Under the pieces are notes generated by a model. That model was not told where the DNA came from. It saw only the letters and a program-made list of their open reading frames with translations, and did not search any database. Made by a program: the position numbers and the translations under genes. A stretch of 64,000 bases of DNA, from positions 124,001-188,000 of the forward strand of contig NZ_NXLO01000002.1 in NCBI RefSeq assembly GCF_003364295.1, in the 5' to 3' direction. Source of the stretch: Helicobacter sp. MIT 99-5507 (lineage in GTDB: Bacteria; Campylobacterota; Campylobacteria; Campylobacterales; Helicobacteraceae). Positions 2 to 57,866 of the stretch are shown here, one piece after another (position 1 is the stretch's first letter; each line of letters starts with the position of its first letter).

Positions 2-997
2 TTTGAAAAAGAAATGAAACGACTTGAATATAGACTACCATTATTCAATGAAACACTTATTGAAAATCATAAAAAAATATTATCAAATATATTAAATATG
101 TCAAAAGCTGATATCGCTCAAGCAGTCCCTGAAACTACGATGGTGAGTACTTATGTAGAAATTAAAAAATTACTTCAAACAAAAGAAGCTTCAAAAGATA
201 GTTTTAATCTTGATGAAAAAAAATTAAAAGAGATTCTAGAACAAATCAAAAGAGGAAAATTAATAGTAGATAAAGCCAAAAATAAAATGGCAAAAAGCAA
301 TCTAAGACTTGTTGTATCAAATGCAAAAAAATATACAAATAGAGGTTTGCCATTTCTTGATTTGATACAAGAAGGCAATATTGGATTAATGAAAGCTGTG
401 GATAAATTTGAATATAAAAGAGATTATAGATTCTCAACATATGCTACTTGGTGGATAAAACAAGCAATAAGTAGAGCTATTGCAGACCAAGCACGAACAA
501 TTAGAATTCCTATTCACATGATTGACACCGTAAATAAAATAAATAAAACCCAAAGAGATTACATACAAAAATATGGAAAAGAACCAGATATAGAATACAT
601 TGCAAAAGAAGTATCACTTCCAGCAGATAAAATCAAAAATGTTATCAAAATGACAAAAGAACCAATCAGTCTTGATGCACCAATTGGTAATGATGAAGAT
701 GGAAAATATGGCGATTTTGTCGAGGATAAAAACACCATAGGACCTATGGAACAAGTATTAAAGGAGGATTTAAGAGGACAGATAGATGAAGTATTAATGC
801 AACTAAATGAAAGAGAGAGAGCCGTCATAAAAATGCGGTTTGGGCTTTTAGATGATGAAAGCGATAGAACTCTTGAAGAAATAGGAAAAGAGCTAAATGT
901 TACACGAGAAAGAGTTAGACAAATAGAATCTAGTGCAATAAAAAAACTAAAACATCCTAGAGTAGGTAAGAATCTTAAGAAATATATAGAAGATTAG
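2..997 (+). CDS. rpoD: RNA polymerase primary sigma factor RpoD (C-terminal part, 5' end outside window)
   Basis: Primary sigma-70 factor, which directs core RNA polymerase to housekeeping promoters. The reading frame is open to the left edge with no stop, so the gene begins outside the window; the first internal Met is at 14. Visible parts are region 2 ([30 protein letters not shown], the aromatic [14 protein letters not shown] strand that melts and reads the -10 box), region 3, and region 4 with its helix-turn-helix ([20 protein letters not shown]) near the C-terminus. The N-terminal region 1 is missing only because of the window edge. A separate gene, gdhA, starts 35 bases downstream. Confidence 0.96.
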
Positions 998-1029
998 AAA
1001 TATTGTAGTAATTTCAAAATTAGGAGTAA

Positions 1030-2385
<1,356 letters not shown>

Positions 2386-2390
2386 AATTT

Positions 2391-2418
2391 TATAAGAATC
2401 TTAGCTAAGATTCTTATA
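2391..2418 (+). terminator. 28-bp perfect palindrome after gdhA (probable terminator)
   Basis: The 14-base left arm ends in AATCTTAG and is matched exactly by the right arm, with no unpaired loop in the DNA. Outer bases (GTGCTAT before, ATAGCAC after) can extend the pairing. There is no clear T run, so Rho-independent termination is likely but not certain. The arms contain the AGAATCT/AGATTCT word found in two other intergenic hairpins of this window. Confidence 0.55.
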
Positions 2419-2441
2419 GCACCTAAATAAGAGAGAATAAA

Positions 2442-3227
2442 ATGAAAGTTACAATTTCTACTTTTCAAAAACTAAAAGGAAATGGCAAAATTACATCAAT
2501 TACCGCTTATGATGCCTTGTTTGCTAGAATTTTTGATGGCGAAGTTGATATGATATTAGTTGGTGATAGCTTATCAATGAGTTTTGGTGGAAATAAAGAT
2601 ACGATTCCATTGAGCTTAGATTCTATGATATACCATACACAAGCAGTATCAAAAGTAGTCAAAAAATCATTATTGATCGCTGATATGCCATTTGGTTCAT
2701 ACAATACAAATAAATCTGCTCTAAAAAATGCAACAAAGCTATATAAAGAAGGTGGGGCGGATGCAATCAAAATAGAAGTAAATGAAAACAAGATTGATAT
2801 GGTAAAAATGCTAAGCGATAATGGTATAGCAACTATGCCACATATAGGGCTTATGCCACAATTTTATAGGTTTGAAGGTGGATATAAGATAAAAGGCAAA
2901 AGCAAAGAAGAAAAAGATTCTATGCTAGAGCTTGCATTAAAACTTCAAGATGCAGGAGCGTTTTCCTTACTCATTGAGGGAACAAAAAGCGATATAGCTA
3001 GAGATATTACACAGAATTTAAAAATACCAACTATTGGCATTGGAAGTGGAAATCATACAGATGGGCAGATTTTAGTTTGGAGTGATATGTTTGGATTTTT
3101 TGATGAGTTTAAACCAAAATTTGTCCGCCAATATCTAAATGGAAAAGAACTATTAAAAAAATCAATAAAACAATATGCAGATGATGTCAAAAATTTACGA
3201 TTTCCAAATGATGATGAAAGCTATTAA
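2442..3227 (+). CDS. panB: 3-methyl-2-oxobutanoate hydroxymethyltransferase (pantothenate synthesis)
   Basis: Transfers a hydroxymethyl group from methylenetetrahydrofolate to 2-oxoisovalerate to make ketopantoate, the first committed step to pantothenate and CoA. The 261-residue length fits the PanB family. [12 protein letters not shown] near residue 40 holds the metal-binding Asp, [12 protein letters not shown] the region that binds the substrate, and [24 protein letters not shown] the conserved C-terminal block. The stop codon shares one base with the ruvB start (TAATG), so the two are translationally coupled. panB-ruvB is also the order I recall for H. pylori. Confidence 0.95.
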
Positions 3228-4225
3228 TGCAGAGAATAGTAGAGGTTGAAAAAATATCTTTTGAGGAAAAAGAAGAAAGCTCCCTTAGACCTCAAAACTT
3301 CAATGAATACATAGGGCAAAAAAATATCAAAAAAAATCTTCATATAGCAATAAGCGCAAGTAAAAAAAGAGGTGAATTTTTAGATCATATATTACTTTTT
3401 GGACCTCCTGGACTTGGTAAAACTACACTAAGTTTTGTTATTGCAAATGAAATGAATACAAATATAAAAGTCACTTCTGCACCTATGATTGAAAAAAGTG
3501 GCGATTTAGCAGCCATACTAACAAATCTAAATAAAGGTGATATATTGTTTATTGATGAGATTCATCGTCTAGGAAGCAATATAGAAGAGATTCTCTACTC
3601 TGCTATGGAAGATTTTAGATTAGATATTATAATTGGATCTGGACCTGCTGCACAAACTATAAAAGTAGATATAGAAAAATTCACGCTAATTGGAGCTACA
3701 ACTAGAGCTGGAATGCTTAGTAATCCACTTAGAGATAGATTTGGTATGACTTTTAGAATGCAGTTTTATGAACAAGGTGAATTATCCAAAATAATTAATC
3801 TTGCAGCAAAAAAATTAAATAAATCTATCATGCAAGATTCTAGTGATGAAATAGCAAAAAGATCGCGGGGGACACCTAGAATTGCACTTAGATTGCTAAA
3901 AAGGATTCGTGATTTTAGTGAATATTATGATGAAGATTCTATAAGTATTGATACTACATTAAAAGCACTAAATGAGCTTAAAGTCGATGCAAATGGCTTT
4001 GATGAGCTAGATTTGGCATTTTTGGATTTATTAGTCAAGGCAAGAGGAAAACCTCTTGGTCTTAGCACTATTTCTGCGAGTTTGAGTGAAGATGAAAGAA
4101 CTATAGAAGATGTAATAGAACCTTATCTTTTAGCAAATAATTATGTAGAGCGAACATCAAAAGGGAGAATTGCTACAAAAAAAGCTTATGATTTATTAGG
4201 TATTGCAAACAATGATTTGTTTTAG
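3227..4225 (+). CDS. ruvB: Holliday junction branch-migration ATPase RuvB
   Basis: AAA+ motor that works with RuvA to migrate Holliday junctions in recombinational repair. The order of parts is standard: N-terminal [11 protein letters not shown] block, Walker [10 protein letters not shown] near residue 60, Walker [11 protein letters not shown] near 105, sensor/arginine-finger stretch [18 protein letters not shown], and a C-terminal winged helix ([25 protein letters not shown]). Its 332 residues match the family. It starts on the last base of panB, and the next gene begins 9 bases after its stop, so panB, ruvB and the permease gene probably share a transcript. Confidence 0.96.
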
Positions 4226-4234
4226 GAGTAAAAA

Positions 4235-5269
4235 TTGAAACAAAAATATTTTTTTTGGATTATTTTTGCATTTACATTTTATTGGATATTACAGCTATAT
4301 AAACCATTTTTGATGAATCTATTAGTAGCTTTGTTATTATGTGTGGCTACATTTGGGTTAAAACAATTTGTAGATAAATTCATAAAATACAATTTTATTT
4401 CATCATTTCTAACTATCGTAATATTTCTTGGAATCTTCATATTTCCCCTTGCATTAGTCATAAACAACATGATACACGATATTGCAAATATCAATATTGA
4501 AGAACTATCAAAATTCATAAATGAATCAAAAATAAAAAGTATAGAATTACTAGAACAATTCCCATCAGCCCTAAAAGATAATGCAATAGACTTTATCACA
4601 TCAATTAATATCAATACAATTATAAGCTATGCTGTAAATTTTAGTGGCAAGATAGGAAAAGTAGGGATAAATTTTGTTACAGATTCTATTTTTATACTAA
4701 TATTTCTATATCTATTTTATTACTATGGTATCTTACTAAGAGATTATATTATTGACATAATACCTTTTGATAAAATCGATAGCAAAGAGATTTTAGAAGA
4801 AGTAAGCGGAGTGTTAAAAGTAGTATTTTTTAGCACAATCATATCAATGATACTTCAAGGATTTAGCTTTGGAGTGATAGCGTCATTTTTTGGATTTAGT
4901 GGAATCTTATTTGGCATGTTATATGGTATCGCATCAATTATACCTGTCGTTGGTGGTGCTATCATTTGGGTGCCTGTGAGTTTGTATATATATTGGGCTG
5001 GTGATTTAAGTGGAGCAATATTTATCGCACTATATTCTATGATATTTATTGGCACAATAATTGATAATGTAATAAAACCACTAATTATAAACATAGTAAA
5101 TAAGATTGTATTAAAAAATCCTGTCAAAATTAATGAGATGTTAATATTTATTGCAATCTTAGCAGGACTCGCTAGCTTTGGTTTTTGGGGGATTATCATT
5201 GGTCCTACTATAAGCTCATTTTTTATAGCATTACTTAGAACCTACCAATACAAATTCAAAGATACATAA
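4235..5269 (+). CDS. AI-2E family transporter (PerM-like membrane protein)
   Basis: Polytopic inner-membrane protein of the AI-2E/PerM family. Hydrophobic segments lie near residues 5-40, 57-80, about 150-170, 195-240 (a long glycine-rich pair), 250-280 and 300-335, and a soluble, charged stretch sits near 85-125. The late LFGMLYGIASIIPVVGGAIIW block and DNVIKPLII are family signatures. The start is a TTG with AGGAG six bases upstream; no ATG fits better. The substrate is unknown: family members have been linked to autoinducer-2 export or Na+/H+ exchange, and nothing here decides between these. Confidence 0.85.
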   Translation: MKQKYFFWIIFAFTFYWILQLYKPFLMNLLVALLLCVATFGLKQFVDKFIKYNFISSFLTIVIFLGIFIFPLALVINNMIHDIANINIEELSKFINESKIKSIELLEQFPSALKDNAIDFITSININTIISYAVNFSGKIGKVGINFVTDSIFILIFLYLFYYYGILLRDYIIDIIPFDKIDSKEILEEVSGVLKVVFFSTIISMILQGFSFGVIASFFGFSGILFGMLYGIASIIPVVGGAIIWVPVSLYIYWAGDLSGAIFIALYSMIFIGTIIDNVIKPLIINIVNKIVLKNPVKINEMLIFIAILAGLASFGFWGIIIGPTISSFFIALLRTYQYKFKDT

Positions 5270-5331
5270 AAGAATAAATCAAGCCTACTAAATTTGATAG
5301 AATCCACAAAATAGCTTTTTGGAGTAATAAA

Positions 5332-7020
5332 ATGGCAAATAATAATATAGTTTTACAAATCGGAGCGGGGGGCGTTGGCGGTGTTGTGGCACATAAAATG
5401 GCACAAAATAGGGAGGTTTTCTCACATATCGTGCTAGCTAGCCGCACACTTAGCAAATGCAAAGCAATAGCAGATTCTATCCGCACAAAGGGCTTGGGAG
5501 AAATCGAAATCGCAGAAGTTGATGCGGATAATGTGGATAGCTTGGTGGCTTTGATTGAGCGTGCAAAGCCGCTTGTGGTGGTGAATGTCGCCCTGCCTTA
5601 TCAGGATTTAAGCATTATGGAAGCCTGTTTGCGCACAGGCGTGCATTATCTTGATACCGCAAACTATGAACACCCAGACTCCGCGCATTTTGAATATAAG
5701 GAGCAATGGGCGTATGACACGCGCTACAAAAAAGCGGGGATTTTTGGGCTACTTGGTAGCGGCTTTGACCCGGGCGTTACGAATGTTTTTTGTGCCTACG
5801 CGCAAAAGCATTATTTTGATGAAATCCACAGCATCGATATTTTGGACTGCAACGCAGGGGATCACGGCTATGCCTTTGCGACTAATTTCAATCCAGAAAT
5901 AAATTTACGTGAAGTCTCTAGCAAGGCGCGATATTGGACGCGGGATTCTATGAATGCGGGCGAAGCAACGACTGTCATTGCGAGTGAGGAACGAGCGAAG
6001 CAATCTATGCCACCCGTCATTGCGAGCGAAGCGAAGCAATCCAACAACGACTTAACCCTAAACCCCGACTTACAAGAGGATAAAATCTATCGCAAATTTG
6101 AGTGCGAGGAAAAGCATTTTAAGCTAGATTCTAACACGCAGGATTTGCGTAATGAGCCTTATGCAGGCGGGACTTGGCGAGATGTTGTGCCACTAAAATT
6201 AATGAAAGAATGGGAATACCCAGAGGTTGGCGTGAAAAATTCATATTTGCTCTATCATGAGGAGTTGGAATCTCTTGTGCGAAATATCCGAGGGTTGCGT
6301 AAAATCCGCTTTTTTATGACTTTTGGGGAAAGCTATTTAACGCACATGAAATGCCTTGAGAATGTTGGGCTTTTGCGCGTTGATAGTGTGGAACATAAGG
6401 GGCAAAAAATCGTGCCAATAGAAGTGTTAAAGACTCTTTTGCCAGACCCTGCAAGCCTTGCGCCTCGCACAAAGGGGCAAACGCATATTGGCTGCTATAT
6501 GAAGGGGTTAAAGGACGGCAAGGAGCGCACAATTTATATTTATAATATTTGCGACCATGAGGCTTGCTATCGTGAGGTAAATGCACAAGGTGTGAGCTAT
6601 ACAACAGGCGTGCCAGCGATGATTGGAGCAAAGCTGATATTCGAGGGGAAATGGGGCATTGGACAGACTAAAAATGTGGCTCTCACTCAATCTTTACAGG
6701 AGCTTGAAAAATCTTCAATCGATAGGCAATCAGCCTTATCTCAATCAGATTTTTCTGCCCAACCTGCAAATCTTAAGCAAAATCCACATTTTTCAGATTC
6801 TATAGATTTTAATGCCGAGCGTTTAAAACTAAATAGCGATATGCCAAAAGGCGGGGAAGAACAGGGCGTAGATTCTAATAGCGGTGCTGGAATATGGAAT
6901 ATCGAGCAAAACGACCCCGACCCATTTATGGAAGAACTAAATAAACAAGGGCTACCCTATGTGGTGTGTGAGATAGATTCTAAAGGCGAGAGAAAAATAC
7001 TAGAGGATGGAAGGAGATAG
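5332..7020 (+). CDS. Saccharopine dehydrogenase-like / carboxynorspermidine dehydrogenase
   Basis: NAD(P)H-dependent reductase of the Lys9/carboxynorspermidine-synthase family, which makes carboxy(nor)spermidine for polyamine synthesis. The N-terminus has the Rossmann turn (QIGAGGVGGVVAHKMA); FGLLGSGFDPGVTNVFCAYA and LLYHEELESLVRNI are family blocks, and the C-terminus has EQNDPDPFMEELNKQGLPYV. At 562 residues it is far longer than the usual ~400. Two inserts account for this: one at about residues 210-285, built on palindromic repeats (VIASEERAKQS, VIASEAKQS), and a low-complexity one at about 460-520. Codons are visibly GC-richer (gcg, cgc, ggc) than in the neighbours, which suggests transfer. 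No decarboxylase gene lies nearby. Confidence 0.82.
   Translation: MANNNIVLQIGAGGVGGVVAHKMAQNREVFSHIVLASRTLSKCKAIADSIRTKGLGEIEIAEVDADNVDSLVALIERAKPLVVVNVALPYQDLSIMEACLRTGVHYLDTANYEHPDSAHFEYKEQWAYDTRYKKAGIFGLLGSGFDPGVTNVFCAYAQKHYFDEIHSIDILDCNAGDHGYAFATNFNPEINLREVSSKARYWTRDSMNAGEATTVIASEERAKQSMPPVIASEAKQSNNDLTLNPDLQEDKIYRKFECEEKHFKLDSNTQDLRNEPYAGGTWRDVVPLKLMKEWEYPEVGVKNSYLLYHEELESLVRNIRGLRKIRFFMTFGESYLTHMKCLENVGLLRVDSVEHKGQKIVPIEVLKTLLPDPASLAPRTKGQTHIGCYMKGLKDGKERTIYIYNICDHEACYREVNAQGVSYTTGVPAMIGAKLIFEGKWGIGQTKNVALTQSLQELEKSSIDRQSALSQSDFSAQPANLKQNPHFSDSIDFNAERLKLNSDMPKGGEEQGVDSNSGAGIWNIEQNDPDPFMEELNKQGLPYVVCEIDSKGERKILEDGRR
5974..6041 (+). repeat. Two copies of a REP-like palindromic repeat inside a coding sequence
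   Basis: Copies at 5974-6005 (32 bases) and 6016-6041 (26 bases) both begin GTCATTGCGAG and end GCGAAGCAATC; the first has 6 extra bases in the middle. The ends ATTGC and GCAAT pair. Each is a multiple of bases that keeps the frame open and adds VIASE...AKQS to the protein. I recall this GCAATGAC-type element as a dispersed palindromic repeat in several bacterial genomes, translated as VIASEAKQS, but no search was possible here. Confidence 0.75.
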
Positions 7021-38578: not shown

Positions 38579-40371
38579 ATAGATTAGCTAAAATAGGTAT
38601 AAACAACCTATTTGAAGCCATTTTATACACTCCAAAATCATATACAAATACAACAATTCTAAAATCTCTAAATAAATATTCTACAAATGAAGGTGCAGTA
38701 AAAATAATCATAAATTCTAAAGCAGGATTTGGTAAAACACTTAAATTCCAAGCATATATGCTAGATTTAGATGAGAATCTAGAGATAATAATATTTAATC
38801 CAAAACCATATCACAATAAAATTTTTATTCAAAATAAAGAAATGTATATTTTTGGAAAATTTGAATACAAATATGGAATCTATACCATTGTCCAGCCAAG
38901 AATTACTACAAATATCAATCAAATCACTTTGAATTTTGCTACAACAAGAATAAAAAATCTTAATAATATTTTTAGAGAAATTATCTCACAAGAAAATTTA
39001 AACACTCTAAATTTTGATGATGAAATAAAAAAATCAATATTTAGCATTTTTCACCCAGAATCTGATATATTTTATCTAGATGAATTTAATAAAAATAATG
39101 GACTTTTTGGTAAATATCTTGAGGCGATTAAATTTGTAGAAATATATTATTATATGAGTGAATTACGCAAAAAAAGATACTTTTTTGAAGCTACAAGTAT
39201 TTTAAATGGGGATTATAAAAGTTTTATAAAATCTCTTCCTTTTTCTCTTACAAATGGTCAAGAAAAATGTATTGATTATCTAAGCAAAAAGCTGGATTCT
39301 AAAATTGCTACTAGATGTGTTGTTATGGGTGATGTAGGCTGTGGAAAGACTATTGTAATCCTCTCTTGTGTAATGATGGCTTATCCAAAAAAATCTATAC
39401 TTCTTGCACCAACAACAATACTTGCAAGTCAAATATATAATGAAGCAATAAAATTCTTACCAAAAAATATCAGTGTAGGACTTGCCATCAAGGACAATCA
39501 GATTGTAGATTGTGATTTTTTGATAGGAACACATTCACTTTTGTATAAGGATATTTCATCTTTTAGTCTATTTATGACCGATGAACAACATAGATTTGGG
39601 ACAAATCAAAGAATGACGATAGAAAAAATGCTAGAAATTGATGGCAAAAAACCGCATAGCATTCAATTTTCTGCTACACCAATACCACGCACAATGGCAT
39701 TAATAGAATCTAATATAGTTGATTTTTGCACTATAAAAGATTTACCATTCAAAAAAGATATCACAAGCAAAATTATTACAAAAGATGACTTTAGTACATT
39801 AATAGCACATATAAAAGAAGAGATTAAAAAACATATGCAAATTGCAATAATATATCCATTAGTAGAACAAAGCAATACAATAGCATATCAATCCATAGAA
39901 GAAGGCTTGCCATTTTGGCAAAAAAATTTTAAAAATGTTTATTCAACGCATGGCAAAGATAAAAATAAAGAAGAAATCATTGATTCTTTTAGAGATAATG
40001 GTGATATTTTGATTGCAACTACATTATTTGAAGTGGGTATCTCTCTTCCTAGATTATCAACAATTATTATTGTTGGGGCGGAGAGACTTGGATTTGCTAC
40101 ATTACACCAACTAAGAGGCAGGGTAAGCAGAAATGGAGCAAAAGGATTCTGCTTTTTATATACAAATGAAGCAAAAAGAGCAAGGTTGAATGATTTTATA
40201 AAAACAAATAATGGCTTTGAGATTGCAGAGCTAGATTTGAAATATAGAAATAGCGGGGATATTTTAAAAGGGATTCGCCAAAGTGGCATGCAATTTAAAT
40301 ATTTTGATATAGCAACAGATAAAGAAATAGCAAACAATGCAAAAAATTTACTTAATGAAGGCACAAAATGA
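38575..40371 (+). CDS. recG: ATP-dependent DNA helicase RecG
   Basis: Reverses stalled forks and moves branched DNA. The 598 residues have a reduced N-terminal wedge domain compared with the ~690 of E. coli; helicase motifs are complete: VVMGDVGCGKTIV (Walker A), FMTDEQHRFGTNQRM (DEQH), IQFSATPIPRTMALI, TTLFEVGISLPRLSTIIIVGAERLG, and LHQLRGRVSRNGAKGFC. Short RecG is what I recall for Helicobacter. It is coupled by ATGA overlaps to the M16 gene before it and the glycosyltransferase after it. Confidence 0.93.
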   Translation: MNRLAKIGINNLFEAILYTPKSYTNTTILKSLNKYSTNEGAVKIIINSKAGFGKTLKFQAYMLDLDENLEIIIFNPKPYHNKIFIQNKEMYIFGKFEYKYGIYTIVQPRITTNINQITLNFATTRIKNLNNIFREIISQENLNTLNFDDEIKKSIFSIFHPESDIFYLDEFNKNNGLFGKYLEAIKFVEIYYYMSELRKKRYFFEATSILNGDYKSFIKSLPFSLTNGQEKCIDYLSKKLDSKIATRCVVMGDVGCGKTIVILSCVMMAYPKKSILLAPTTILASQIYNEAIKFLPKNISVGLAIKDNQIVDCDFLIGTHSLLYKDISSFSLFMTDEQHRFGTNQRMTIEKMLEIDGKKPHSIQFSATPIPRTMALIESNIVDFCTIKDLPFKKDITSKIITKDDFSTLIAHIKEEIKKHMQIAIIYPLVEQSNTIAYQSIEEGLPFWQKNFKNVYSTHGKDKNKEEIIDSFRDNGDILIATTLFEVGISLPRLSTIIIVGAERLGFATLHQLRGRVSRNGAKGFCFLYTNEAKRARLNDFIKTNNGFEIAELDLKYRNSGDILKGIRQSGMQFKYFDIATDKEIANNAKNLLNEGTK

Positions 40372-41369
40372 AAATAGCATTTGAAGCAAATGCCCTTACA
40401 TCTCCGCATACAGGCATAGCAAAAAGCTTAATCAATCTAATAAAACATATAAAAGATGCAGAAATAATCCTATTTACAAATAATAATAAAAAAATAAATC
40501 TAAATTTAGGGTTTAAATACACTTTTATAGACTTAAATGGGGGGGGGTGGAATAAATCATTAGAATCTTGTGATTATTTACATTATCATCAAAATGGCGG
40601 AATCTTGCCAAATTTCAGTAATAATGTTTTAATGATACACGATGTTTTGCCACTAATACTAGATAAAAATCCATTGCGAACTTTTAAATATAAACAAAAT
40701 ATAAAAAAGCAAATAAAACTAGCAAAAATAATACTCACTCCAAGCTTGTATTCAAAAACACAAATACAAAAACACTTCAAAGTTACTAAAGAAATACATG
40801 TATTACCTCATGGAATAGATAAGATAGAAATACCAAGTAAAAATAGAGGTGATTATTATATTTATGTGGGTGGATATGATCCTAGAAAAGGTTTGGATAA
40901 TTTATTAGAAACTTTTATTAGACTAAATAGAAAGATTATTTTTGTAGGCGAAATACGATATTTTTCACCATATTTTAGATTCTTATCACAAAAAGCAATG
41001 GAATTAGGAATCTTAACACAAAGTGGCTATGTAAATGAGATGGAATTAAAAAAATTAATAAAACACGCAAAAGCTCTAATCTATCCATCAAAATTTGAAG
41101 GTTTTGGTTTGCCACCATTGGAATCTATGGCACTTGGCACACCTGTAATAACAACTCCATTTAGTAGTATCAAAGAAGTATGCAAAGAATGTGCTTTGTA
41201 TTTCAATCCAGATATAAAAAATAGTCTTTATGAGAAAATAATAGAATTTGAAGAAAATAATATTGCAGAAAAACTAATAGAAATGGGGTTAAAAAATGCT
41301 AAAAATTTTAGCTGGGAAAAAAGTGCAAGAGAATATATAAATATTTTATATAAATCTCATTTGCAATAA
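40368..41369 (+). CDS. Phase-variable GT4 glycosyltransferase
   Basis: Predicted cytoplasmic glycosyltransferase with a GT-B fold, 333 residues. The start reads FEANALTSPHTGIAKSLINL; the donor half has VLPHGIDKIEIP, YIYVGGYDPRKGLDNLLE and YPSKFEGFGLPPLESMALGTPV with the conserved Glu pair. A run of nine G at 40539-40547 encodes Gly-Gly-Gly in DLNGGGWNK, so the gene is in frame now, but any change not a multiple of three ends it early. It is coupled to recG by ATGA. Substrate is unknown; LOS or capsule-type surface sugar is likely. Confidence 0.88.
   Translation: MKIAFEANALTSPHTGIAKSLINLIKHIKDAEIILFTNNNKKINLNLGFKYTFIDLNGGGWNKSLESCDYLHYHQNGGILPNFSNNVLMIHDVLPLILDKNPLRTFKYKQNIKKQIKLAKIILTPSLYSKTQIQKHFKVTKEIHVLPHGIDKIEIPSKNRGDYYIYVGGYDPRKGLDNLLETFIRLNRKIIFVGEIRYFSPYFRFLSQKAMELGILTQSGYVNEMELKKLIKHAKALIYPSKFEGFGLPPLESMALGTPVITTPFSSIKEVCKECALYFNPDIKNSLYEKIIEFEENNIAEKLIEMGLKNAKNFSWEKSAREYINILYKSHLQ
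40539..40547 (+). repeat. Poly-G tract (G9) in a glycosyltransferase gene
   Basis: Nine consecutive G in a gene otherwise about 30% GC, 172 bases after the start codon. Long G runs in coding DNA of Helicobacter and Campylobacter are classic slipped-strand contingency sites. The count seen here keeps the frame open. Confidence 0.9.
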
Positions 41370-44834: not shown

Positions 44835-46490
44835 ATGCAAACAAAATATATCTTTGTTACAGGGGGAGTTTTAAGCTCCCTTGGTAAAGGAATATCTTCA
44901 TCTTCTATTGCCACATTAATAAAACATGCAAATCATAAAGTCTCAATACTAAAAATCGATCCTTATATAAATGTAGATCCTGGAACAATGAGCCCCTTAG
45001 AACATGGTGAAGTTTTTGTGACATATGATGGTGCAGAAACAGATTTGGATTTGGGGCATTATGAAAGATTCTTGGATATGAATCTTTCAAAAAAACATAA
45101 TTTTACAACAGGACAGGTATATCTATCAGTCATTGAAAAAGAAAGAAGTGGATTTTATCTTGGAAAAACTATACAGATAGTCCCGCATATTGTTGATGAA
45201 ATCAAAAGTAGGATCAAAGAAGCCGGTATTGGAAGTGAATTTTTAATTGTAGAGCTTGGTGGGACAGTTGGTGATATAGAGGGTATGCCATACTTAGAGG
45301 CAATGCGTCAGCTAAAGCACGAGCTTGGAAATGGTATGGTAATTAGCATACATGTTACACTCATACCACTTATAAAAGCAGCAGGTGAGCTAAAAACAAA
45401 ACCAACACAGCATTCTGTCCAAGAGTTAAGAAGAATAGGGATAAATCCACAAATAATCCTTGCAAGATGCGAAAAGCCACTATCAAGAGATTTAAAACAA
45501 AAATTATCTCTAAGTTGCGATGTAGATGATGATTGCGTGATTGTAGTAGAAGATAGTGATAGTATTTATAAAGTACCTCTAAATTTAATGAGAGAAAATA
45601 TCCTTAGCCCAATATCACGATATTTTAACCTCACTTATCAAATAACTCCTAAGATGGATGAATGGGATTTTTTAGTGAAACGAATAATCTCTCCAAATAG
45701 CGATGTGAAAATAGCATTTGTAGGCAAATATCTTGATTTAAAAGAATCTTACAAATCCCTAACAGAAGCCCTAACTCACAGCGGAGCACACACTGATACA
45801 AGGATCAATATAAAATGGATTGATAGCTCACTGCTTGATTCTAGCAATATCAATGTTGAATTAGGCGATATTGATGCTATTTTGATACCTGGCGGATTTG
45901 GTGAAAGAGGCATTGAAGGTAAGATTTTAGCTACAAAATACGCTAGAGTTAATAATATTCCATTTCTTGGAATCTGCCTTGGAATGCAACTTGCAATAAT
46001 AGAATTTTGCAGAAATGTATTAGATATGAAGAATGCACAAAGTGTAGAATTTGACAAAAACACAAAAGAGCCAGTTATTTATCTAATAGAAGATTTTATC
46101 GATTTTCAAGGTAAAAAGCAGTTTAGGACACATACTTCACCTATGGGCGGAACAATGCGGCTTGGAGAATATCCTTGCGATTTAAAGCCAAATACAAAAA
46201 TCCATGCAGCATATAACAAATCTACAATTTATGAACGACATCGCCACAGATACGAAGCAAATATAAAATATAAAGAGATTCTAGAAGAAAATGGGATAAT
46301 TATTAGCGGTCAATCAAATGGGCTAATTGAAACAATAGAGCTAAAAGATCATGTATGGTTTGTTGGAGTGCAATTCCACCCAGAATTTACTTCAAAATTA
46401 CAGAATCCAAATCCTATAATATTAGAATTTATAAAACAAGCAAAACAATATAAAAATAGTAAAGATGAGCGTTTTAAAACAAGTTACTGA
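44835..46490 (+). CDS. pyrG: CTP synthase
   Basis: Makes CTP from UTP, ATP and glutamine. The 551 residues have the synthetase domain first ([53 protein letters not shown]), then from ~300 a class I glutamine amidotransferase with nucleophile Cys in [11 protein letters not shown] and His-Glu in [10 protein letters not shown]. All catalytic residues are present. The last 26 bases overlap recJ. Confidence 0.97.
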
Positions 46491-56422: not shown

Positions 56423-56683
56423 ATGAATGAGAAAAAAAGATATTCAAAAAGATACTGCAGATACACAGAAGCAAAACTAGAATTTATCGATTATAAAGAT
56501 ATAGAAATGCTTAAATATTCTCTATCAGAGAGATATAAAATTATGCCAAGAAGACTAACAGGAAATACAAAAAAATGGCAAGAAAGAGTTGAAGTAGCGA
56601 TAAAAAGAGCAAGACATATGGCACTAATTCCATATATCATTGATACTAAAAATGTAGTAGATAATCCATTTAAAATAGGATAA
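56423..56683 (+). CDS. rpsR: 30S ribosomal protein S18
   Basis: 86 residues with the S18 signature: [39 protein letters not shown] followed by [21 protein letters not shown]. The first cysteine is retained, but the zinc-type cysteine set is incomplete. It is the last gene of the operon; a long hairpin follows 15 bases after the stop. Confidence 0.97.
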
Positions 56684-56698
56684 ATAATATTTTTATCT

Positions 56699-56732
56699 AG
56701 AATCTTGCTTATTTTAATAAGCTATAGATTCT
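56699..56732 (+). terminator. Terminator-like hairpin after rpsR
   Basis: Nested inverted repeat: outer AGAATCT...AGATTCT, inner GCTTATT-TT-AATAAGC, followed by TTAATACTT. It is the third intergenic hairpin in the window with AGATTCT/AGAATCT arms. Confidence 0.6.
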
Positions 56733-56855
56733 TTAATACTTCAAAGATAAAGAATGCAAAATATCTTTAGGCTACTTTATCGAGTGTTATGAAGTATATT
56801 TAGATAATATTTAATCAAATATATTTCAATAACATTTATTTTTTTAGGAATTGTT

Positions 56856-57794
56856 ATGCCCAAGTTTTCAATCATTGTGCCAATGTATAAAGCAGAGCAT
56901 CACATAAAAATAGCACTAGATTCTTGCGTCAATCAAAGTTTTCAAGATATTGAAGTTATCATTATTAATGATAATGAATATGGGGGGGGGGTGCAAGCTG
57001 ATATAGCAATCGCACAACAATATGCCTCTACTTATCCTTTTGTAAAACTCTTTCATAATCCAAAAAATCTTGGACCTTTTCTCTCTCGTAACAGCGGCGC
57101 ACTACAATCAAATGGTGAATATCTTTTGTTTTTAGATTGTGATGATTATTTGGATTTAAATGCTTGTGAGAGTTTATCTAATGCTTTGGATTCTTCAAGA
57201 GATTTTCAAACTCCTGATATTATAGGCTTTAATTTCTTTAAGCAAGAAAATAAAACTTTTTATAAAGACACACTTTTTACGCAAGATAGCTATTTCACCG
57301 CTAAGCAGTTTTGGCTCTATCTATTTTCACAGAAAAAATGTTATTGGAATCTTTGTAATAAAGCTTACAAAAAGTCCACCTATCTTGATGCCCTAAAAAG
57401 TATGGACTTACAAGATAAAGTGCTAATGGCAGAAGATACTTTTGCGTTTCTTGCACTTTTGTGTCAAGCTAAAAATGTGCAAACACTAAGCTCTGCGCTT
57501 TATTATTACACACAAAATCCCCACTCTATAACCCAACGCACTGACAAATCAAAGTTTGAACAAAGCATAAAATATCACAAACTCATCTTGCATAAAATCT
57601 CTAATCTTTCTATTACGCAATCTTTGGATAAGCAATTTTTATGTAAGATTTTCTCTTATGATTTATACTGCACACTTCTTAATGAAATGCGAATATACAG
57701 AGGTAATACGCTTTTTTATATCTACTCAAATATACAAAAAAAGCTCTTAAGATTTAAGCGCAAAATTGCACTTAAAAAATTAAAACAATATTAA
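56856..57794 (+). CDS. Phase-variable GT2 glycosyltransferase
   Basis: 312 residues, GT-A fold: FSIIVPMYKAEHHIKIALDSCVNQS, IIINDNEYGGG, the NPKNLGPFLSRNSGA block and the metal-binding LLFLDCDDYLD. The C-terminal part is basic (FKRKIALKKLKQY), which suggests membrane contact. A run of ten G (56982-56991) encodes Gly-Gly-Gly-Val in the loop after the first Asp, and is in frame now. The gene stands alone between the rpsR terminator and the minus-strand miaA, with slightly higher GC than the neighbours. The sugar is unknown. Confidence 0.9.
   Translation: MPKFSIIVPMYKAEHHIKIALDSCVNQSFQDIEVIIINDNEYGGGVQADIAIAQQYASTYPFVKLFHNPKNLGPFLSRNSGALQSNGEYLLFLDCDDYLDLNACESLSNALDSSRDFQTPDIIGFNFFKQENKTFYKDTLFTQDSYFTAKQFWLYLFSQKKCYWNLCNKAYKKSTYLDALKSMDLQDKVLMAEDTFAFLALLCQAKNVQTLSSALYYYTQNPHSITQRTDKSKFEQSIKYHKLILHKISNLSITQSLDKQFLCKIFSYDLYCTLLNEMRIYRGNTLFYIYSNIQKKLLRFKRKIALKKLKQY
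56982..56991 (+). repeat. Poly-G tract (G10) in a glycosyltransferase gene
   Basis: Ten consecutive G, 127 bases into the gene. Loss or gain of one G ends translation soon after, which gives an on/off switch of the encoded enzyme. It is read as on in this sequence. Confidence 0.9.
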
Positions 57795-57866
57795 TTTAAT
57801 TTATCCTTGAAAATAAATGCCCAAATATTAAGACTTTGTGATTAATCCTTATTAGCCTTAGTAGCT

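Follow-up and report, generated by a model that had tools for sequence, protein, structure and literature searches.

A G10 tract in the donor-nucleotide loop of an accessory GT2 glycosyltransferase gene as a candidate phase-variation switch in Helicobacter sp. MIT 99-5507

Results

An accessory GT2 gene between rpsR and miaA

The window analyzed in this work, a stretch of 64,000 nucleotides from Helicobacter sp. MIT 99-5507, carries on its forward strand a GT2 glycosyltransferase gene of 312 codons (56856–57794) whose frame is open across an internal G10 tract. This assignment draws on the open reading frame, the PF00535 profile, a structure model and a fold match. Specifically, the protein matches PF00535 with an E-value of 6.6e-22 and scores 78.7 bits, where the curated cut-off is 23.3. 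An AGGA read from the sequence 6 nt 5′ of the ATG (56846–56849, + strand) is a possible ribosome-binding site. A promoter scan returned 6 sites against a shuffle mean of 9.6, and terminator-like sites numbered 3 against 0.4 in shuffles; the interval from rpsR to the GT2 gene has none.

With respect to conserved residues, we relied on two alignments, A2 with 12 homologues (11 from relatives and 1 from the organism's own genome) and A3 with 37 loci drawn from several phyla, in named genomes or MAGs. The D94-C-D96-D97 motif (57135–57146, + strand), which we take to be the metal-binding Asp motif of GT2 enzymes, is invariant in both. The conserved E193-D194 pair (57432–57437, + strand), presumably the catalytic base region, is retained almost as strictly, with E193 found in 12/12 and 35/37 homologues and D194 in 12/12 and 37/37. 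The window protein thus contains D39, D94, D96, D97, E193 and D194, and P9 is also kept; the motif is altered in its D-x-S part. The structure model used throughout was built on A3 and has a mean pLDDT of 86, and its match to 5hea (Z 25.7 over 266 residues) identifies a GT-A fold. A single-sequence structure reached a pLDDT of 43 and was set aside.

The gene occupies a variable slot between rpsR and miaA (56682–57866), delimited by comparison with congeners. The order of the neighboring genes is preserved for 13 of the 13 tested in G003 and G004, for 11 genes within the fetched stretch of G002, and for 7 genes in G001, all on the side of miaA in a stretch that does not include rpsR. In G003, the closest congener by MiaA (89%) with a genome that is 56% complete, the slot holds a 145-residue protein with sub-threshold CopD similarity only; in G002 it holds a cation-efflux protein, and in G004 about 156 bp separate the flanking matches. 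Since the slot is without a GT2 gene in G002, G003 and G004, the three congeners in which it can be read, the gene is an accessory insertion. In three species of the genus the slot itself (L138, L139 and L140) is filled by three different genes, and in a fourth it has no gene; from these contents it is apparently a small insertion spot with unrelated cargo. Elsewhere in the window, the flank of an H. anseris locus, one of the best 80 of 513 relatives kept from an alignment scan, aligns to positions 46077–46456 with 71% identity over 389 columns, so a place in Helicobacteraceae is likely.

The G10 tract and its reading frame

The G10 tract is located at 56982–56991 on the + strand, where it spans codons 43–45 and the first base of codon 46. 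The 126 nt from the ATG (56856) to the tract set its frame as GGG GGG GGG GTG, encoding Gly43-Gly44-Gly45-Val46, and so the G10 run encoding glycine that an earlier note had placed here is exact in position, strand and reading. This run is the sole G10 on either strand of the 64-kb window, and none of 100 dinucleotide shuffles contained one, which is at odds with a chance origin. It falls at codon 43 of 312, and the downstream frame is open as assembled (the ON state). The two other frames close almost immediately, at a TGA (56999–57001, + strand) and a TAG (57004–57006, + strand) that lie 7 and 12 nt past the tract and leave products of about 48 and 50 residues, respectively; off-frame tract lengths would in this way abolish the enzyme. 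At ten bases, the run is also long enough to slip when compared with H. canadensis, in whose reads lengths of G9 and longer varied (tables of PMC2823697).

The state of the tract is that of one assembly, and the tract is a candidate for slippage. A 23-base flank that includes the tract start had no match in the viral contigs searched, and no second allele of the tract was present in the other large sequence collections scanned, among them genome contigs in which a single-protein scan matched 46 stretches, none of them a relative.

One further tract is found in the window. A G9 run at 40539–40547 (+ strand) is situated in a gene for a 333-residue GT4-type protein (40368–41369; run listing, and PF00534 with an E-value of 5.6e-22), and no C run of at least 7 is listed in the window. 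This G9 is the only other + strand run of at least eight G, and so the earlier note was right to describe the G10 as the second tract, in a second glycosyltransferase.

In terms of origin, the nearest homologues of the GT2 protein among 121 family genomes are 50% and 49% identical (G130 and G129, respectively), and matches at 1e-20 or better occur in 51 of the 121. Both nearest homologues are flanked by other glycosyltransferase-like open reading frames, as judged by sequence and not by family search. Their fetched loci have no G or C run of at least 6, and their loop at the tract site is of the length standard for the alignments, so the G10 tract is probably derived. No glycine triplet is present at this site in the homologues, which favors birth of the tract by insertion over drift from glycine codons that were already there.

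The tract loop inside the enzyme

Codons 39–46 (56970–56993, + strand), placed from both alignments and the model, comprise Asp39 and the tract-bearing loop. Asp39, which on the pattern of the GT-A fold presumably contacts the donor nucleotide, is conserved in 12/12 sequences of A2 and 36/37 of A3 (48/49 overall), with Asn in the remaining one. The model shows a strand at residues 32–38, a helix at 47–59 and no regular structure between them. The earlier note had assigned the tract to a loop next to the nucleotide-binding Asp, and this placement is borne out by the model, which sets residues 43–45 after the strand that leads to Asp39 and before the helix that follows. These tract glycines are the sole internal segment with a pLDDT under 50, the other segment being C-terminal (306–312). 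Such low values may reflect flexibility, or merely an insertion that is absent from every homologue.

The length of this loop sets the window protein apart. Between the Asp39 column and the residue-53 column, 9 residues are found in 49 of 49 homologues and 13 in the window GT2, although the exact site of the 4 extra residues is uncertain by a few positions. The standard length that the window protein departs from is a common trait of these alignments and not a formal GT2 criterion. It had been suggested that length changes of three bases would probably be harmless here; this is doubtful given the fixed loop length of the homologues. The alignments argue that extra loop residues are not neutral in general, and the window protein, if active, would be an exception.

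G tracts in other GT2 genes

On contig C1 of the same genome, a G11 tract at C1:243558 separates two pieces of one GT2 that are in differing frames, an OFF-like arrangement. The upstream and downstream pieces match PF00535 over positions 1–37 and 51–128, and the A2 profile over 3–39 and 57–131, and by these boundaries the G11 falls in the same loop as the window G10. A third GT2 tract, at C4:128727, is near position 78–82 of the A2 profile. Two same-loop cases do not show selection for that place.

Beyond this genome, the pattern GATGAT-N(0-15)-G8 has matches in 44 of 120 family genomes. Using a profile built from A2 (E ≤ 1e-3), 4 of 30 pattern loci (L163–L192) were found to have a GT2 domain, and none of the 4 has a coding-strand G tract in or near it. 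Pattern loci that would read Asp-Asp-Cys-Gly-Gly are thus not GT2 by this test. In a sample of 50 loci of relatives picked for their GT2 matches (81 domain matches, with overlap between three longer stretches and shorter loci), the loop is free of G or C runs of at least 7. The sample yielded 22 rows of such runs within 60 nt of a GT2 domain (some tracts appear twice), with nine at profile positions 106–129, eight at 223 or beyond, three where the domain begins and single ones at 83 and 152. A tract in the Asp39 loop is thus rare in this sample of relatives.

A more elaborate arrangement was observed at L068:4100–5547 (G000:C1:361099–362546), in which an N-terminal GT2 piece is followed by a G9, a complete GT2 in another frame and a G10 at the end. 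Similar tandem GT2 matches about 400 nt apart are present in long open frames of relatives.

Poly-G tracts across the genome

The organism's own genome (1.53 Mb in 7 contigs) contains 98 tracts of at least eight G, of which 64 are G9, 26 G10, 5 G8 and 3 G11. A simple rule on open frames sorts 38 of them as split between frames, and in 23 a single frame is open both before and after the tract. Of the rest, 19 are close to a 3′ end; close to a 5′ end are 4 that are open and 9 whose open frame lacks a start; the last 5 are of other kinds. The 38 split tracts are an upper figure for OFF states, as a split may also mean overlapping neighbor genes. Among 117 tract-associated pieces, Pfam matches include PF00535 GT2 (12), Methyltransf_23 (PF13489; 9), FkbM (PF05050; 7), GT61 (4) and GT group 1 (3). 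Four congeners have 69, 142, 28 and 12 tracts of at least eight G. The view that two switches give at least four surface states is, with 98 tracts in the genome, a large undercount, and the pair of tracts in the window has no special standing.

Contig C1 (465 kb) holds 66 of the 98 tracts, many in dense runs of neighboring genes at about 106–113 kb, 230–246 kb, 354–377 kb and 395–420 kb. At the 19 tracts near a 3′ end, slippage would alter the C-terminus alone. The word CAGC directly follows 17 of the 98 tracts, where a first-order Markov model predicts 0.56 (examples in G000 are C1:236519, C1:372873, C2:405538 and C4:92384), while it follows 5 of 1501 exact GGG and none of 42 runs of 5–7 G. 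Tract plus CAGC occurs in 26 of 121 family genomes, and reversed controls in G000 gave 0. The genes concerned are mostly unrelated to one another, and where at least 60 codons are open downstream (n = 15), the word is read as Gln-Gln in 12 cases, Ser in 2 and Ala in 1. From this distribution, the tract with its CAGC flank may have been copied between genes.

Discussion

Taken together, these observations point to a poly-G contingency locus, and very probably to an accessory GT2 that undergoes translational ON/OFF phase variation and is ON as assembled. Slippage at the G10 during replication would shift the frame after codon 45, and the gene would flip between the 312-residue enzyme (ON) and a stub of 48–50 residues (OFF). 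We infer both the sugar and the surface target of the enzyme, which would most likely add one sugar to a cell-surface glycan; a flip would then add or remove that sugar. The 38 split tracts and the 23 open on both sides are the mixture that switching loci would give. Of the earlier note's proposal, a poly-G tract at which a frameshift would cut a glycosyltransferase short, within the loop that follows the GT2 Asp, is supported, and the two-switch, four-state count is not.

There is a slim chance that the tract has two modes, in which single slips turn the enzyme off and three-base slips, through gain or loss of a glycine beside the bound nucleotide, grade it or change its donor use. In-frame lengths encoding two, three or four glycines would all still yield protein but alter the flexibility of the donor loop and thereby activity or donor use. 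Gly43–45, beside Asp39, are indeed the one internal stretch of low pLDDT, a tract is present at this place in one more GT2 of the genome, and loop length is fixed in 49/49 homologues, so a change in it could matter. On the other hand, no in-frame variant was seen in the one assembly, and the low pLDDT may only reflect an insertion missing from homologues. Truncating slips, by one or two bases, are moreover expected more often than slips by three, and this counts against a graded mode. Given the same-loop tract in the second GT2, a two-mode arrangement would be repeated and selected and not a single accident.

We consider it improbable that the enzyme is decaying or inactive, with switching of no effect after an insertion into a conserved catalytic loop had already spoiled it. 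The loop that is 4 residues longer than in 49/49 homologues and the altered D-x-S part would fit such a history, but P9, D39, D94, D96, D97, E193 and D194 are all kept, the frame is open over 312 codons, and, the loop and the C-terminal tail aside, most of the protein is modeled with confidence. The confidence placed in these readings overlaps with that in the switch, since a graded or an impaired enzyme could switch too. Also improbable is an almost stable tract that gives the GT2 a glycine-rich loop without a useful switching rate: the assembled gene reads through in frame, and the one assembly shows no variation, but G10 is within the lengths that vary in H. canadensis (PMC2823697 tables, G9 and above), and split frames occur at many tracts of comparable length in the genome studied here.

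The ON/OFF switch that we favor is a candidate of a known kind, and ordinary in a genome full of such runs. Its unusual aspect is the place, with a glycine run prone to slippage lying in the donor-nucleotide loop, and one OFF-like GT2 of this genome shows the same. Should the locus switch, it would be one more random variable in a lineage already rich in tracts (98 here and 12 to 142 in four congeners), and would bear on the diversification of these bacteria in their hosts. The window GT2 is also a natural test of how far a GT-A donor loop tolerates change, as the poly-G entered a loop of otherwise fixed length among 49 homologues.

With respect to known enzymes, the window model shares its whole fold with GT2 structures at 21–22% identity, namely 5hea (GalT1), S. 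aureus TarS and TarP. The superpositions gave Z 25.7 and rmsd 3.4 Å with 266 residues aligned for 5hea, and Z 25.6 and rmsd 3.6 Å with 268 residues aligned for TarS (5tzk). Unlike the window GT2, 5hea and 3bcv have a loop without insertion relative to the A2 profile in the alignments shown, and the shared fold does not imply a poly-G switch for 5hea, TarS or TarP.

As for known poly-G systems, the phasomes of Campylobacter, a different genus, resemble this genome in having poly-G as the main tract type and surface-structure modification genes among its carriers, and resemble the window GT2 in that tract-bearing genes have tract-free homologues, according to the part of the PhasomeIt report cited here (PMC6321876). 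The same source suggests several routes of tract birth, including insertion and drift of existing codons, whereas the window homologues offer no glycine triplet from which to start. Poly-glycine tracts of Campylobacter, again in a different species, likewise have G on the coding strand, and the variable ones described in the cited part of PMC539331 are in LOS genes.

A close parallel comes from H. canadensis, for which the cited sections of PMC2823697 report that 29 of 29 gene-associated tracts varied in read data, with a caution from the authors on homopolymers with their sequencing method. That figure stands beside 98 tracts of at least eight G here, under differing counting rules. One of the H. 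canadensis genes, the glycosyl transferase HCAN_0101, has a G11 that ranges from G9 to G14, and in eight genes of the species slippage changes only the C-terminus (PMC2823697). In both organisms, coding poly-G tracts of about 9–14 bases are found in sugar-modification genes and in regional clusters, and the tract-dense areas of contig C1 are much like the tract-rich cluster described in that report.
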